64,000 nucleotides of DNA from Paenisporosarcina sp. FSL H8-0542. GTDB taxonomy: Bacteria; Bacillota; Bacilli; Bacillales_A; Planococcaceae. Of the stretch, positions 55,961 through 60,312 are shown one piece after another; positions within the stretch are counted from its first letter, which is position 1; the number at the start of each line of letters is the position of its first letter. The position numbers and the translations under genes were made by a program. Under the pieces are notes generated by a model. That model did no database searches. It was not told where the DNA came from and saw only the letters and a list, made by a program, of their open reading frames with translations. Location of the stretch: the NCBI RefSeq assembly GCF_038632915.1, contig NZ_CP152050.1:2077001-2141000 (forward strand), written 5' to 3'.

Positions 55961-56413
55961 TTACCCTCTCTTTTTTTTAGTTATTTTTGGTTCTTCATAC
56001 GAAATAATATCGATTATATGATTCAAGCAAGGAACCTGATAATGTACAAATTTGTCTTCGGGAAATATATCTTCTGCTATGGTTCCAGCTTTAATGAAAT
56101 CTAAGTATCTTGATTTGGTGTAAACCTTAAATATTTCACCTTGAAAAACTTCATATTCATCCACCACTGTAAATGACTCATTTATTACCGAATAAGATAC
56201 ATAGGACTTAAATTCAAGTTGAATTGCTGGTAATCCATCATCCACTTCAAAAGGATAATAAGCTTCTGTAAATCGTTCACCTAAATCTATATCCTCACTT
56301 TTGTTACTGATTTTACATCTATCGATTAATATACATAGGGCATTTTCTTCAGGTTCTGACAAGTTGTTCAGATAAATGTAACCTTTTGATTTCATTAAAT
56401 CGTTGTAATTCAT
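55961..56413 (-). CDS. Hypothetical protein, 150 residues
   Basis: Start MNYNDLMKSKGYIYLNNL chosen for its AGAGGGG site. Acidic soluble protein with ENALCILIDRCKISNKSEDIDLGE, FEVDDGLPAIQLEFKSYVSYSV and a basic tail KITKKKRG. No recognised family; size and charge are compatible with an immunity-type protein, but nothing shows this. Confidence 0.65.
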   Translation of the reverse strand: MNYNDLMKSKGYIYLNNLSEPEENALCILIDRCKISNKSEDIDLGERFTEAYYPFEVDDGLPAIQLEFKSYVSYSVINESFTVVDEYEVFQGEIFKVYTKSRYLDFIKAGTIAEDIFPEDKFVHYQVPCLNHIIDIISYEEPKITKKKRG

Positions 56414-56468
56414 ATCATCATCCCCTCTTTCTTTGTACACTTAAGTATTCATTTTATCATTTCCCTTG

Positions 56469-56544
56469 TTCAACTATCCTGCCCCGTTAGTTGAATAAGA
56501 AAAAGGCTTTACCCCTTATTGAAGTAAAGCACCCGTTAGTTGAA
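56469..56544 (+). repeat. Palindromic repeat, copy 19 (short type, best preserved)
   Basis: TTCAACTATC-CTGCCCC-GTTAGTTGAATAAG, GGCTTTACCCC, TTATTGAAG, AAAGCACCCGTTAGTTGAAG. Confidence 0.92.
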
Positions 56545-56610
56545 GAAGAGATCCATTTTACAGGTAATTAACTTCGGCGTATCGAATAGATTGTGTAAAG
56601 GGGTGATTAA

Positions 56611-57858
56611 GTGGTAAGTAAAGAAAAATGGAAACGATGGCGTTTCCCAACTTTATTACTAGGGGCTGTTGGAATATCTGGACTGGGGGATTTTGTATTT
56701 TTGGTCGCTATAAATTTATTAGTGTATCAAATGACAGAATCCGCAGCAGCTGTGGCTGTTCTGTGGATTGTTGGACCACTTGCATCGATTTTCACGAGAT
56801 TTTGGGCTGGGAGCATTATTGATCGTGCAAATCGCAAAAAGTTAATGATATGGACGGACTTGATTCGGGCATTATTAATCGCTTTGGTCCCTTTTATGCC
56901 TACCGTATGGGAGATATACATATTGTTGTGGTTTGTGAGCATGGCGAAAGCATTTTTTGCACCTGCATCGCTTACCTATATTACGGAACTTGTTCCAGCT
57001 GAACAACGCAAACAATTTAATGCATTTTATTCCTTAACAAGCTCTGGTGCATTTATTGTAGGACCCGCGATTGCAGGGGTGCTTTTTGTCATTGGTTCAG
57101 TGTATTTAGCAATCTATTTAAATGCAATCTCTTTTTTAATATCAGCAATTTTGTTTTTATTTTTACCTGATCAACAGAAAGAAAAAACATCATTTAAAAA
57201 TCCATTGTCTTTTTCAGCTATTAGAGAAGACGCAAAAACCGTTATTGCTTTTGGAAAAAAAACACCCGTTTTTATGCTAGTACTTGCTTTGTATTTAGGA
57301 ACACTGTTCACAACATTTGCTATGGATACGCAAGAAGTTGTCTTTACTCAGCGAGTCGTTGGGCTATCAGAGCTGGATTATAGTTTGCTCATTAGTATTA
57401 CAGGCATCGGATCTATTTTAGGAGCATTAACGGTTGCGTCTTTTTCAAAAAAACTATCCATACGTTTTCTTTTTGGTGGAGGACTTCTTCTAATGTCACT
57501 CGGTTACTTACTGTATGCCTTCAGTACGTCGTTCATAATGATTACAATAGGGTTCGTATTACTGGGGTTTTTTAATTCTTTTGCTAACACTGGCTACAAC
57601 ACATTTTATCAATTTCATGTTCCAATTGAAATTATGGGGAGGGTGACTAGCTTTTATGGACTCATCCAAAGTGCAGGGCAAATCCTATTGGTAATAGTCT
57701 TTGGTATCGTAGCAGATATTTTTCCACTCCGATATACAATTATCACATTATCTCTGGTGAATTTCTTCTCTATAATTGGCCTGATCGTACTGATGAAACA
57801 TCGTATCTATCAGTCGATTTTTAGTGAAGTGGAGAACAATGAAAAGATGACTGCATAA
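56611..57858 (+). CDS. MFS transporter (MefA/YfmI-type, 12 helices)
   Basis: 415 residues, GTG start after AAAGGGGTGAT. Twelve hydrophobic segments; MFS loop motif GSIIDRANRKKLMIWTD between helices 2 and 3; LTYITELVPAEQRKQFNAFYSLTSSGAFIVGPAIAG in helices 4-5 is typical of macrolide-efflux-like exporters of Bacilli. The drug or substrate cannot be assigned. It is followed at once by the repeat copy that carries the IS element. Confidence 0.88.
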   Translation: MVSKEKWKRWRFPTLLLGAVGISGLGDFVFLVAINLLVYQMTESAAAVAVLWIVGPLASIFTRFWAGSIIDRANRKKLMIWTDLIRALLIALVPFMPTVWEIYILLWFVSMAKAFFAPASLTYITELVPAEQRKQFNAFYSLTSSGAFIVGPAIAGVLFVIGSVYLAIYLNAISFLISAILFLFLPDQQKEKTSFKNPLSFSAIREDAKTVIAFGKKTPVFMLVLALYLGTLFTTFAMDTQEVVFTQRVVGLSELDYSLLISITGIGSILGALTVASFSKKLSIRFLFGGGLLLMSLGYLLYAFSTSFIMITIGFVLLGFFNSFANTGYNTFYQFHVPIEIMGRVTSFYGLIQSAGQILLVIVFGIVADIFPLRYTIITLSLVNFFSIIGLIVLMKHRIYQSIFSEVENNEKMTA

Positions 57859-57874
57859 AAAATGCTACTTTTTC

Positions 57875-57889
57875 TTATTGAACTAACCT
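57875..57889 (+). repeat. Palindromic repeat, copy 20, left part (split by the IS element)
   Basis: CTTATTGAACTAACCT, the left half up to and including CT; the right half CTGCCCCATTAGTTCAATAAG is at 59644-59664. Confidence 0.88.
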
Positions 57890-57920
57890 CCCTCTATAAA
57901 CATTGATGTATCAACGGTTT

Positions 57921-57937
57921 ACATCACTTCGTGATGT
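57921..57937 (-). repeat. Subterminal hairpin of the IS element
   Basis: ACATCAC-TTC-GTGATGT, perfect 7-bp stem, 32 bases from the 3' end of the element. Confidence 0.75.
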
Positions 57938-58089
57938 GAGGAAAAATATTTTTGACGGTTTCAATAAACATAGATTTGAATATATAGTTTTTATTACCAA
58001 CTTAAGAGTACGCTTCGCTAAAACTAATGGAAATCATTAGCTTTTCTTTGCCATTATGTGATGCACAATGGATCTCTGCGAAACTTATG

Positions 58090-58210
58090 ATGACGGACCC
58101 TCCCATGTCTCTTAGCGTCAGTGCGCTTACATTCCTTCGTTTGGTCTATTCATAAGGCAGAGGCCTGCTAAGCTGCCCCGGGGACTCATGGTCTTAGTTT
58201 AGTTATGTTG
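58090..58210 (-). ncRNA. Candidate bridge/seek guide RNA of the IS110 element
   Basis: In the 3' noncoding end, same strand as the transposase. Read on the + strand, CTAAGCTGCCCCG (58168-58180) matches the insertion target CTAACCTGCCCCG at 12 of 13 bases across the CT core, and TTAGTTTAGTT (58194-58204) resembles its right arm. The neighbouring loop contains CATTCCT (58130-58136), identical to the transposase-proximal end of the element, and CTCCC (58100-58104), identical to the other junction. On the minus strand the loops are closed by CTAAG/CTTAG, GACC/GGTC and GCG/CGC stems. Transcription is not shown. Confidence 0.65.
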
Positions 58211-58259
58211 CTGGCTTCTCCGTGTCATCCTTCTTGTCATAAATCGATCATCGAAATGT

Positions 58260-59537
58260 TTACGCTGCCTCTGAGAGGCAGTAAAGATCCTTCATCATAT
58301 ACTGCTCATTAAAATGGACTTTCTTTTTACATATGCCATGTAATACTTTCAGTAATTTACCGCACAAGACCACCATTGATTGCTTACCCCGTAAGGGATT
58401 TTGTTTGCGTGTTGTGTAGTATTCATGAAGCTGTTTAAACGCCGCGTTATGACGTATGAGTGGAACTATTACTTTGAAGAGGATATATCTGAGTTTCTTT
58501 CGCCCTCTTTTCGAGATATGTTTTTGTCCCTTATGTTGACCAGACGAGTTTTCACGTAGTGTTAATCCCGCTAGTTTGATAAGTTGGCGTGGATTTTCAT
58601 AAAGTGAAAAGCTCCCTACTTCAGAAAGTAAATCAACAATCGTCGCATCTCCTAAACCAGGAACGGAACTGAGTAACTCATATTCCATTGTTGTTTGTGC
58701 CATTTCGGCTAATTGATTATTTACAGAGGCAATTTCGGTTTCTAATAAGCGATACTGACGTAGGAGCGTGGCGATTTCATGTCGGGCCATCTTTTCTCCT
58801 TCTTTCAGGCCGATTGAGTTAGTCGAAGCTTCAATGAGAAGCTTTGCTTTCGGCAACTGTGGCGTTCTCATACCCTCTACCTCACGGTATAGAAAAACCA
58901 ACTCCTCAGCTGTTTTCCCTTCAATATCCTGTGGAAATGGAGTCATTTCCAATGCCGCCAACGCCATCTTTCCAAAAGACGGAAAGACTTGAGTAAACTC
59001 TGGAAAATAGCGATCAAGCCAACGGACGATTCGATTTTTAATACTCGCTAAATCTTCCGTTAACTTTGAACGGAGAGTAGATCCGATACGAAGTTCAGCT
59101 TCTACCTCTTTTAACAAACGTGGATAACTAAAACGGCCATCCTTCAATAAGCGTGCGATGACCAACGCATCTTTTTTGTCGTTCTTTGTTTGTAAATTAT
59201 CGTCCAGTTCCTTCGAACGTTTGACGTGCATTGGATTTACCATGACGAGTGGAATGCCATAGTTACCTAAGAAATAAGCCAAGTTCATCCAATAGTGGCC
59301 TGTAGGCTCAATTCCAACGATAACGTCTGTTTTCTTAGCTTCCTTCATGGTTTGACGAATCTTTTCATACAAACTTTCAAAGCCTTCTTTTGATTGATTT
59401 ACTGCAAAGGATTTTTCAATCACACGCCCTCGTTCATCGACAAAGCACGCATAATGAACACGCTTGGCAATATCCATACCGACAACGAGTGTATTTTCAG
59501 TCACTTGATTAATTTTTTCATTGCATTTAAACTGCAT
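58260..59537 (-). CDS. IS110-family DEDD transposase
   Basis: 425 residues. RuvC-like N-terminal domain: VVGMDIAKRVHYACF (Asp), VGIEPTGHYW (Glu), VKRSKELDDNLQTKNDKKDALVIA (Asp-Asp), which form the DEDD set. C-terminal Tnp domain: SSVPGLGDATIVDLLSEVG and LTLRENSSGQHKGQKHISKRG, where the Ser of NSSG is the expected nucleophile. Full length without stops. The last codons overlap a CTGCCTC-TGA-GAGGCAG hairpin (58264-58280). Its ribosome binding site lies inside a stem (59542-59603). Confidence 0.95.
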   Translation of the reverse strand: MQFKCNEKINQVTENTLVVGMDIAKRVHYACFVDERGRVIEKSFAVNQSKEGFESLYEKIRQTMKEAKKTDVIVGIEPTGHYWMNLAYFLGNYGIPLVMVNPMHVKRSKELDDNLQTKNDKKDALVIARLLKDGRFSYPRLLKEVEAELRIGSTLRSKLTEDLASIKNRIVRWLDRYFPEFTQVFPSFGKMALAALEMTPFPQDIEGKTAEELVFLYREVEGMRTPQLPKAKLLIEASTNSIGLKEGEKMARHEIATLLRQYRLLETEIASVNNQLAEMAQTTMEYELLSSVPGLGDATIVDLLSEVGSFSLYENPRQLIKLAGLTLRENSSGQHKGQKHISKRGRKKLRYILFKVIVPLIRHNAAFKQLHEYYTTRKQNPLRGKQSMVVLCGKLLKVLHGICKKKVHFNEQYMMKDLYCLSEAA

Positions 59538-59541
59538 AGAG

Positions 59542-59603
59542 AAGTCCTCCTAGTTAGCTGATGGGTCAATGGTCGTTGACACTCACATCATACTAGAGGG
59601 CTT
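59542..59603 (-). promoter_or_regulatory. Hairpin sequestering the transposase ribosome binding site
   Basis: AAGTCCTC-C-CTAGT style left arm pairs with ACTAGAGGGCTT over 12 bp with one bulged C. The AGGAGGAC site of the transposase (59551-59544) is inside the stem. The same fold, with paired base changes, exists in the orphan end at 44666-44738. Confidence 0.7.
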
Positions 59604-59643
59604 TTTTTCTTTCAAGATGGCACAAATCCTTCAAACAGGAATG

Positions 59644-59664
59644 CTGCCCCATTAGTTCAATAAG
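59644..59664 (+). repeat. Palindromic repeat, copy 20, right part
   Basis: CTGCCCCATTAGTTCAATAAG; see the left part at 57875-57889. Confidence 0.88.
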
Positions 59665-59724
59665 AAAAAAAGAGCTGACTTGTATGCAGTTGTTTACTGC
59701 GGAAAAAATGCTTATTCACATTCT

Positions 59725-60312
59725 TTAGCGGTCTATTATTTTGAAATAACGATATATTTTGTTTAATTTCTCGTCATGCTTTCCCTTCGGATTTTCCATA
59801 TTCCCAAATTCAAAAAACTTCACTCTTTTTATCCCAACATAATTAAATAAGGCCTTCTTCATTAATACTTTGTGCGCATTATTCAACCAGAACAAAGGAT
59901 AATGCGTTGGCCCCTTCATCGTTGAAATACAAACAACAGACTTCCCCTTCAAAAGTCCTTCTGGCAGAAGTCCGCCCTTGTCTTTGTAGGCAAATTCTGA
60001 AGCAAACATTTGGTCTATATACCCCAAAAGCATAGCTGGAGGCCGTCCCCACCAGATCGGATATATGAAAACTATTTTATCGGCCCAAATAATTTGTTCT
60101 CTATACTTTTCAAGTTGGGGATCGGAGTGCATATCCCTTCTGCGTATTTTCTCATTGAAAACTAGGATCGGATTAAACTCCTCCTCATATAAATCCAGCA
60201 CCTTTATCTCCGCTTTATTGGGGTTTTCACTGCTTCCTTGGATGACCTTTTGAAAAAATGCATAACTAAGGCTCTGATGATTTGGATGCGTATATATAAC
60301 AAGCGTTTTCAT
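59725..60312 (-). CDS. NAD(P)H oxidoreductase, flavodoxin fold (YwrO/KefF-like)
   Basis: 195-residue FMN quinone reductase type: VIYTHPNHQSLSYAFFQKV (phosphate loop), VFIYPIWWGRPPAMLLGYIDQMFA (flavin-binding WWGxPA motif) and CISTMKGPTHYP. Probably reduces quinones or electrophiles. It diverges from a MarR regulator with two operator-like sites between. Confidence 0.9.
   Translation of the reverse strand: MKTLVIYTHPNHQSLSYAFFQKVIQGSSENPNKAEIKVLDLYEEEFNPILVFNEKIRRRDMHSDPQLEKYREQIIWADKIVFIYPIWWGRPPAMLLGYIDQMFASEFAYKDKGGLLPEGLLKGKSVVCISTMKGPTHYPLFWLNNAHKVLMKKALFNYVGIKRVKFFEFGNMENPKGKHDEKLNKIYRYFKIIDR

Follow-up and report, generated by a model that had tools for sequence, protein, structure and literature searches.

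The accessible text of two reports describes bridge (seek) RNAs for relatively few elements (PMC11208160, PMC11187229): IS621, the bridge RNA system of the IS110 group (Durrant 2024, PMC11208160), and ISEc11 and ISPa11, seekRNA elements of the IS1111 family (Siddiquee 2024, PMC11187229), with IS110-type elements that have a downstream noncoding region forming a green group in Fig. 1b of the latter. Insertion sequences that target dispersed REP repeats, namely ISPa11, ISPpu9, ISPpu10 and ISPsy8, all from Pseudomonas, are named in the abstract of a further report (Tobes and Pareja 2006, PMC1525189). Having analysed a 64,000-nucleotide stretch of the genome of Paenisporosarcina sp. FSL H8-0542, hereafter the window, we compared an IS110-family element within it (Table 1) to each of these systems.

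Like IS621, the element combines a related recombinase with a predicted two-loop RNA that has, for target and donor alike, a left and a right guide, and in both systems the dinucleotide core lies within the left-guide match. Unlike IS621, it has its RNA downstream rather than upstream of the recombinase, its right guide before its left guide, a core of AG on the recombinase strand (CT opposite) and a recombinase of 425 amino acids, against 328 for the IS621 chain. With ISEc11 and ISPa11, as far as their accessible description goes (PMC11187229), it shares an RNA that derives from the downstream noncoding region and a top-strand complement placed ahead of the bottom-strand match; natural retargeting among relatives is a likeness to ISEc11 and ISXne4, and dispersed REP repeats are a target of ISPa11 too. 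By contrast with the same description, the window's element carries a promoter-like site inside its left end, with none seen across the circle junction. It may belong to the green group of IS110-type elements with downstream noncoding regions, a comparison made by text mention only. The four Pseudomonas elements are likewise specific for a dispersed extragenic palindromic repeat, but the abstract that describes them names transposases, not a guide RNA (PMC1525189).

Table 1. Coordinates of the element, its predicted RNA and its target site within the window
Feature	Position	Strand	Remark
IS110-family element	57890..59643	-	1754 bp excluding shared AG core; seven identical copies and an empty site in G179
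IS110-family recombinase, 425 aa	58260..59537	-	Pfam, NCBIfam, IS621/ISCro4 alignment
Bridge (seek) RNA, predicted	58069..58221	-	153 nt conserved core; core bounds, not transcript ends
Promoter-like TTGAAA-N17-TATGAT	59587..59615	-	Within left end, directed into recombinase and RNA; consensus match only
Left target half	59646..59655	-	CTAATGGGGC in window copy; within host repeat
Core dinucleotide copy, left end	59644..59645	.	CT on +, AG on transposase strand
Core dinucleotide copy, right end	57888..57889	.	CT on +, AG on transposase strand
Right target half GTTAG	57883..57887	-	
17-bp target site			CTAACGGGGCAGGTTAG; AG core between GGGGC and GTTAG
Right target guide CTAAACT (assigned; weaker support than left)	58196..58202	-	5' side of target loop
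Left target guide CGGGGCAG	58173..58180	-	3' side of target loop
Right donor guide AGGAATG	58130..58136	-	Complementary to left end CATTCCT
Left donor guide GGGAG	58100..58104	-	Equal to right end GGG plus core AG

The recombinase itself is readily placed in the IS110/IS1111 superfamily of DEDD recombinases, having an N-terminal DEDD RuvC and a C-terminal Transposase_20 domain (PF01548, 126.6 bits, cut-off 29; PF02371, 74 bits, cut-off 21.3) and scoring 230.6 bits against NCBIfam NF033542 (cut-off 140). It aligns with IS621 and ISCro4 (E 5e-11 against the IS621 chain), and its D22, E77, D120 and D123, together with the S332-G333 motif, align with IS621. Its assignment below that level is mixed. 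The first-pass annotation had invoked the IS1111 group, and part of that label holds: the longer noncoding region and the RNA lie downstream of the transposase gene, and the top-strand complement precedes the bottom-strand match, with guides running right target, left target, right donor, left donor along the RNA, although the target part of this order hinges on the right-guide assignment discussed below. The rest does not hold, since the protein exceeds the 330–350 amino acids of IS1111 transposases and the subterminal inverted repeats of that group (usually 11–13 bp, range 7–17 bp) were not found, the best match between the 40-bp ends being 5/6. The element fits the IS110 group in size (315–450 amino acids) and in lacking long subterminal inverted repeats, but not in the upstream noncoding region and RNA usual there, a rule to which exceptions exist. 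It is thus neither a clean IS1111 element, because it has no subterminal inverted repeats and a 425-residue protein, nor a usual IS110-group element, because its RNA is downstream and its right guide comes first, but a bridge (seek) RNA type of mixed features. This suggests that IS1111-like RNA placement and guide order can accompany an IS110-type recombinase.

The ends of the element are well defined because the genome's seven copies, identical at 1754/1754 bp, differ solely outside it. Along the recombinase strand the order in every copy is the left target half, AG, CATTCCTGTTT ... TATAGAGGG, a second AG and the right target half, and all seven lie in the same dispersed repeat, at the same position and in the same orientation. 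A second genome of the same species (G179) retains the window's site uninterrupted: the two flanks of the window's insertion are adjacent there, and the empty site reads CTAATGGGGCAGGTTAG, that is, CTAATGGGGC-AG-GTTAG. Insertion at this site therefore differs between two genomes of one species, with an AG on either side of the element. In 7/7 copies insertion is specific for site and orientation and duplicates nothing but the core, the empty site being read for the window's copy only. In G179 no recombinase match was found at E up to 1e-140 or up to 1e-85, and a 180-base remnant at 81% identity is present elsewhere in that genome.

The repeat that receives these insertions has the form CTAACGGGGC-AG-NTTAG, and the window's genome holds 68 unoccupied copies matching YTRANGGGGCAGNTTAG, against none for the reversed control pattern. 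Its left half is CTAACGGGGC in 5/7 element copies and CTGACGGGGC in one; its right half is GTTAG at 6/7 sites and ATTAG at 1/7.

Relatives were gathered over recombinase identities of 40–100%, giving 157 loci (with some copies represented twice), of which 145 include the recombinase C-terminus and 138 an RNA, with 65 unique RNAs; in 7/145 no RNA was found (L100, L071, L033, L034, L035, L075 and L076). The searches spanned hundreds of genomes with the best few candidates per genome scored, making copy numbers lower bounds. For the fold, which takes in more distant relatives, 84 RNAs were located and 63 were aligned and folded together. The resulting consensus structure, with one small hairpin, places standard pairs in 95.7% of cells, and 23/32 pairs show two-sided changes, in 213 cells against a shuffle mean of 62 and at most 35 in slid versions; the slide control favours a consensus structure derived from the same sequences, leaving the two-sided-change count as the stronger point. 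Covariance folding with homologues, which the first-pass annotation had put forward as a check, thus yields a conserved fold with a target loop and a donor loop. The 58090–58210 interval proposed there for the RNA is corrected to the slightly wider minus-strand span of Table 1 (58069–58221). Searched with a covariance model of this RNA (R1), the genome gives seven hits, which are the seven element copies, among the 150 of 310 first-look candidates that were scored. The stability of the single-sequence fold, unremarkable at z -1.28 (373 nt) and +1.01 (161 nt), was dropped as evidence for want of significance in favour of covariation among relatives.

Read on the plus strand, CTAAGCTGCCCCG at 58168–58180, CATTCCT at 58130–58136 and CTCCC at 58100–58104 are present as first annotated. 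In dinucleotide shuffles of the noncoding end, counting both strands, the 12/13 match to CTAACCTGCCCCG never recurred (0/2000), while CGGGGCAG occurred in 7/2000, AGGAATG in 107/2000 and GGGAG in 621/2000, with all three together in 0/2000: the short matches are individually weak and together unlikely. The target-guide reading of the 12/13 match survives for its CGGGGCAG portion, which is the left guide, and fails for the CTTAG that follows. As one continuous guide the match was rejected: CTTAG also follows the guides AAAGGAG and TAAGGAG in L129 and L159, relatives with Shine-Dalgarno-like guides, and must therefore be counted as backbone; as it is conserved irrespective of target, its similarity to the repeat's right half is best taken as coincidental. 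The guides are instead split, one per strand, and occupy opposite sides of an internal loop, the target loop.

The left guide and its target covary. Across 57 RNA groups and 114 distinct targets (leaving out loci that lacked an end, contained N, ran into a contig edge or had a non-AG core, the last being L024, L029 and L030), the five non-core positions match at frequencies of 0.88, 0.88, 0.96, 0.98 and 1.00, against 0.32–0.85 per position under permutation, and overall 4.69/5 bases match versus 2.44 in shuffles (0/10,000). In the whole covariation matrix off-diagonal cells also light up because clades share targets, and we relied on the diagonal together with permutations within clades. These give 4.93/5 versus 4.16 in the repeat-targeting clade (19 groups; 0/10,000), 4.45/5 versus 3.90 in a band of relatives at 60–78% identity (27 groups; 0/10,000) and 4.94/5 versus 2.92 in a clade at 55–60% (8 groups; 2/10,000). 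All five positions match in 40/42 targets of the repeat clade, the other two having one mismatch each, in 15/17 of the 55–60% clade and in 2/4 below 55%; in the 60–78% band five match in 25/51 targets, four in 22 and three in 4, so that the outer guide positions there are only loosely conserved. The first-pass annotation had named related copies with different targets and unchanged loops as the observation that would tell against it; aligned with their target sites, the left guides change with the targets instead.

The same correspondence can be followed inside one genome and across the tree. In G037 all 11 copies are consistent, four with the guide CGGAGCAG in GGAGCAG sites and seven with CGGGGCAG in CGGGGCAG sites, a clean split with a chance of 1 in 330 if copies were independent, the true figure being weaker owing to shared ancestry. 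Of the four sites in full linkage with the target difference there, the guide base at nt 1469 is the sole noncoding one; two of the others alter recombinase residues 187 and 420. Within the repeat clade, each of the guides GGAGCAG, GGTGCAG and GAAGCAG is found on two separate branches and matches the target every time.

These data bear on whether recognition of the repeat rests with the recombinase protein alone, with the guide-like matches in the noncoding end arising by coincidence or drift. The shortness of the individual matches and their recurrence in shuffles would be expected on that account, as would the full linkage of residues 187 and 420 to the target variant in G037; we nevertheless judge it very improbable, since the left guide tracks the target over 57 RNA groups, three guide variants each appear with the matching target in two branches, and the fold is conserved through 213 two-sided changes. 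A second possibility, that the RNA is real but that its guide is flanking target copied into the noncoding end, with a pairing that does not select sites, would equally lead one to expect guide and target to agree in multi-copy lineages. The agreement, however, takes the form of short split segments on the two sides of a conserved loop rather than a contiguous copied stretch, the segments lie on opposite strands in the 55–60% clade (L144, L154 and L148), and copies with one guide are spread over many distinct loci of a single class, all of which make such capture highly unlikely. That the stems merely form an mRNA 3' end or terminator stabilising the recombinase message is scarcely credible even for a region downstream of the recombinase that may share its transcript, given that the variable loop positions are those that match targets and that 56000–60000 has no Rfam family match at E up to 1.

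We consider it very probable that the noncoding 3' end encodes a bridge (seek) RNA that guides the recombinase to the host repeat through a target and a donor loop, the IS110-family reading first proposed for this locus, for which the conserved fold and the guide–target covariation both argue. By analogy with IS621 (PMC11208160) and ISEc11 (PMC11187229), as the accessible text of both reports presents them, the promoter-like site within the left end would drive expression of the recombinase, which would bind the RNA transcribed downstream on the recombinase strand. That RNA would fold into the two loops, AGGAATG in the donor loop pairing with the left end and GGGAG with the right end and core. 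With the donor loop holding the joined ends of an excised circle and the target loop holding the repeat, the circular element would be joined to CTAACGGGGC-AG-GTTAG, the strands being exchanged at AG.

For the right target guide, less well supported than the other three guides, CTAAACT (58196–58202) is the likely candidate from sequence comparison. It is fully complementary to AG+TTTAG and 6/7 complementary to AG+GTTAG; as six of the window genome's seven sites have GTTAG for a right half and the seventh has ATTAG, one guide position is left unpaired, its A standing opposite G in 6/7 and A in 1/7, never its pairing T. Relatives with other targets have, at the same position on the 5' side of the loop, a sequence that can pair with their own right halves, in many cases if one base close to the core is bulged out. 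AG-TCGCCGC is thus faced by GCGGCG(U)AC(A)U, AG-TCGC by GCGAC(A)U and CGGAA by UUCCG, the bulges being our own reading of the sequences. Permutation within the 55–60% clade associates right guide and target (4/10,000), and the result is marginal in the 60–78% band (506/10,000); over all clades the 0/10,000 is confounded by clade, relatedness inflating the differences between them. Within the repeat clade the right guide does not track targets (5.77 against a null of 5.93; 8702/10,000 shuffles as high), and its pairing there is putative.

The donor guides agree with the element ends, on few independent changes. Of 160 rows recounted, 155 could be read (those missed were L020, L022, L029, L164 and L166), with right ends taken from the sequences for L055, L027, L176, L172 and L177 and no right end for L025 and L032. 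Left ends beginning CAGTCC are accompanied by a GGACTG guide in 3/3 rows, from two genomes, and CATTCC or TATTCC ends by GGAATG in 147/152; the remaining five have one mismatch each (GGAAAG twice, GGAATT three times). On the other side, five RNAs (L055, L027, L176, L168 and L169) have the left donor guide GAGAG, and in 5/5 the right end reads GAGAG before the core; GGGAG is found in the other 150 rows, including one, L170, where it is mismatched to a right end of GAGGC. The test is thin because most relatives have both ends in common.

In the recombinase tree (73 rows, midpoint root) the 16 repeat-targeting rows form one clade (support 100/99) among elements with Shine-Dalgarno-like guides, in keeping with the earlier suggestion that the guide had been reprogrammed to the host's repeat. 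Sister elements at 66–70% identity have guides of the Shine-Dalgarno-like kind, and in the 60–78% band all 32 distinct RNA guides end in AGGAG (30) or GGGAG (2). In that band (for example L047, L092 and L138), 33/52 distinct insertions lie 3–16 nt ahead of an open frame, defined as 50 or more codons, or as 30 or more where the frame runs off the end of the stretch (L050, at a contig edge, was unscorable); these elements often sit immediately in front of start codons. The figure for random downstream positions is 147/1060, scored slightly more strictly with 50 codons only, and for repeat-targeting elements 0/42. Joined to the target AGG, the right end yields GAGGGAGG ahead of the gene, a sequence resembling a rebuilt ribosome-binding site.

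On balance we favour a history in which a Bacilli subfamily of bridge-RNA insertion sequences uses the Shine-Dalgarno sequence AAAGGAG for its target guide, which would place it just upstream of almost any gene, the right end GAGGG and the target's AGG rebuilding the ribosome-binding site, and in which one lineage was retargeted to a replichore-polarised repeat whose variants it tracks base by base, joining an IS110-type protein to RNA placement and guide order of the IS1111 type. Among the literature matches listed, in a search that subscription journals and preprints mostly fell outside, no title or abstract opening concerned targeting of Shine-Dalgarno or ribosome-binding sites by IS110 elements. 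If true, this history would amount to a natural record of guide reprogramming in one lineage. The close relatives compared here form a natural series showing how guides change: within one genome a one-base guide difference is paired with a one-base target difference, identical guide variants recur on separate branches, and in one case the target shifts from ribosome-binding sites to a dispersed repeat. The series also supplies matched sets of guide, target and recombinase, some differing by few linked sites, for testing how targets are specified.

The leader (59538–59615, minus strand) can itself fold, the sequence between the -35 and -10 boxes pairing with the recombinase's ribosome-binding site, an interaction open only to transcripts that enter from outside. 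Folded singly, the leader hairpins of eight elements range from -15.6 kcal/mol for the window's element to -41.8 kcal/mol, and such a fold may silence read-through expression of the recombinase.

Five copies of the repeat-type element also occur in G276 (L088 and L110–L113), a genome from which the exact target pattern is absent; three of the five lie in sites that retain GGGGCAG or GGAGCAG on one side and whose right half does not resemble the repeat.

The host repeat is polarised along the chromosome. In the window's genome (G000:C1, dnaA at base 331) 31/31 copies at 0.28–1.79 Mb lie on the plus strand and 37/37 at 2.11–3.49 Mb on the minus strand, and the seven element copies have the same polarity as the repeat; in G037:C1, 9/9 copies before 1.77 Mb are plus and 30/31 after 2.07 Mb are minus. 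We infer that repeat polarity tracks the replichores, with the origin of G037 not located. A longer form of the repeat, about 80 bases with dozens of partial matches, lies at 56470–56555 of the window, and its second arm reads CTAACGGGTGCTTTACTTCAATAAGG on the minus strand.
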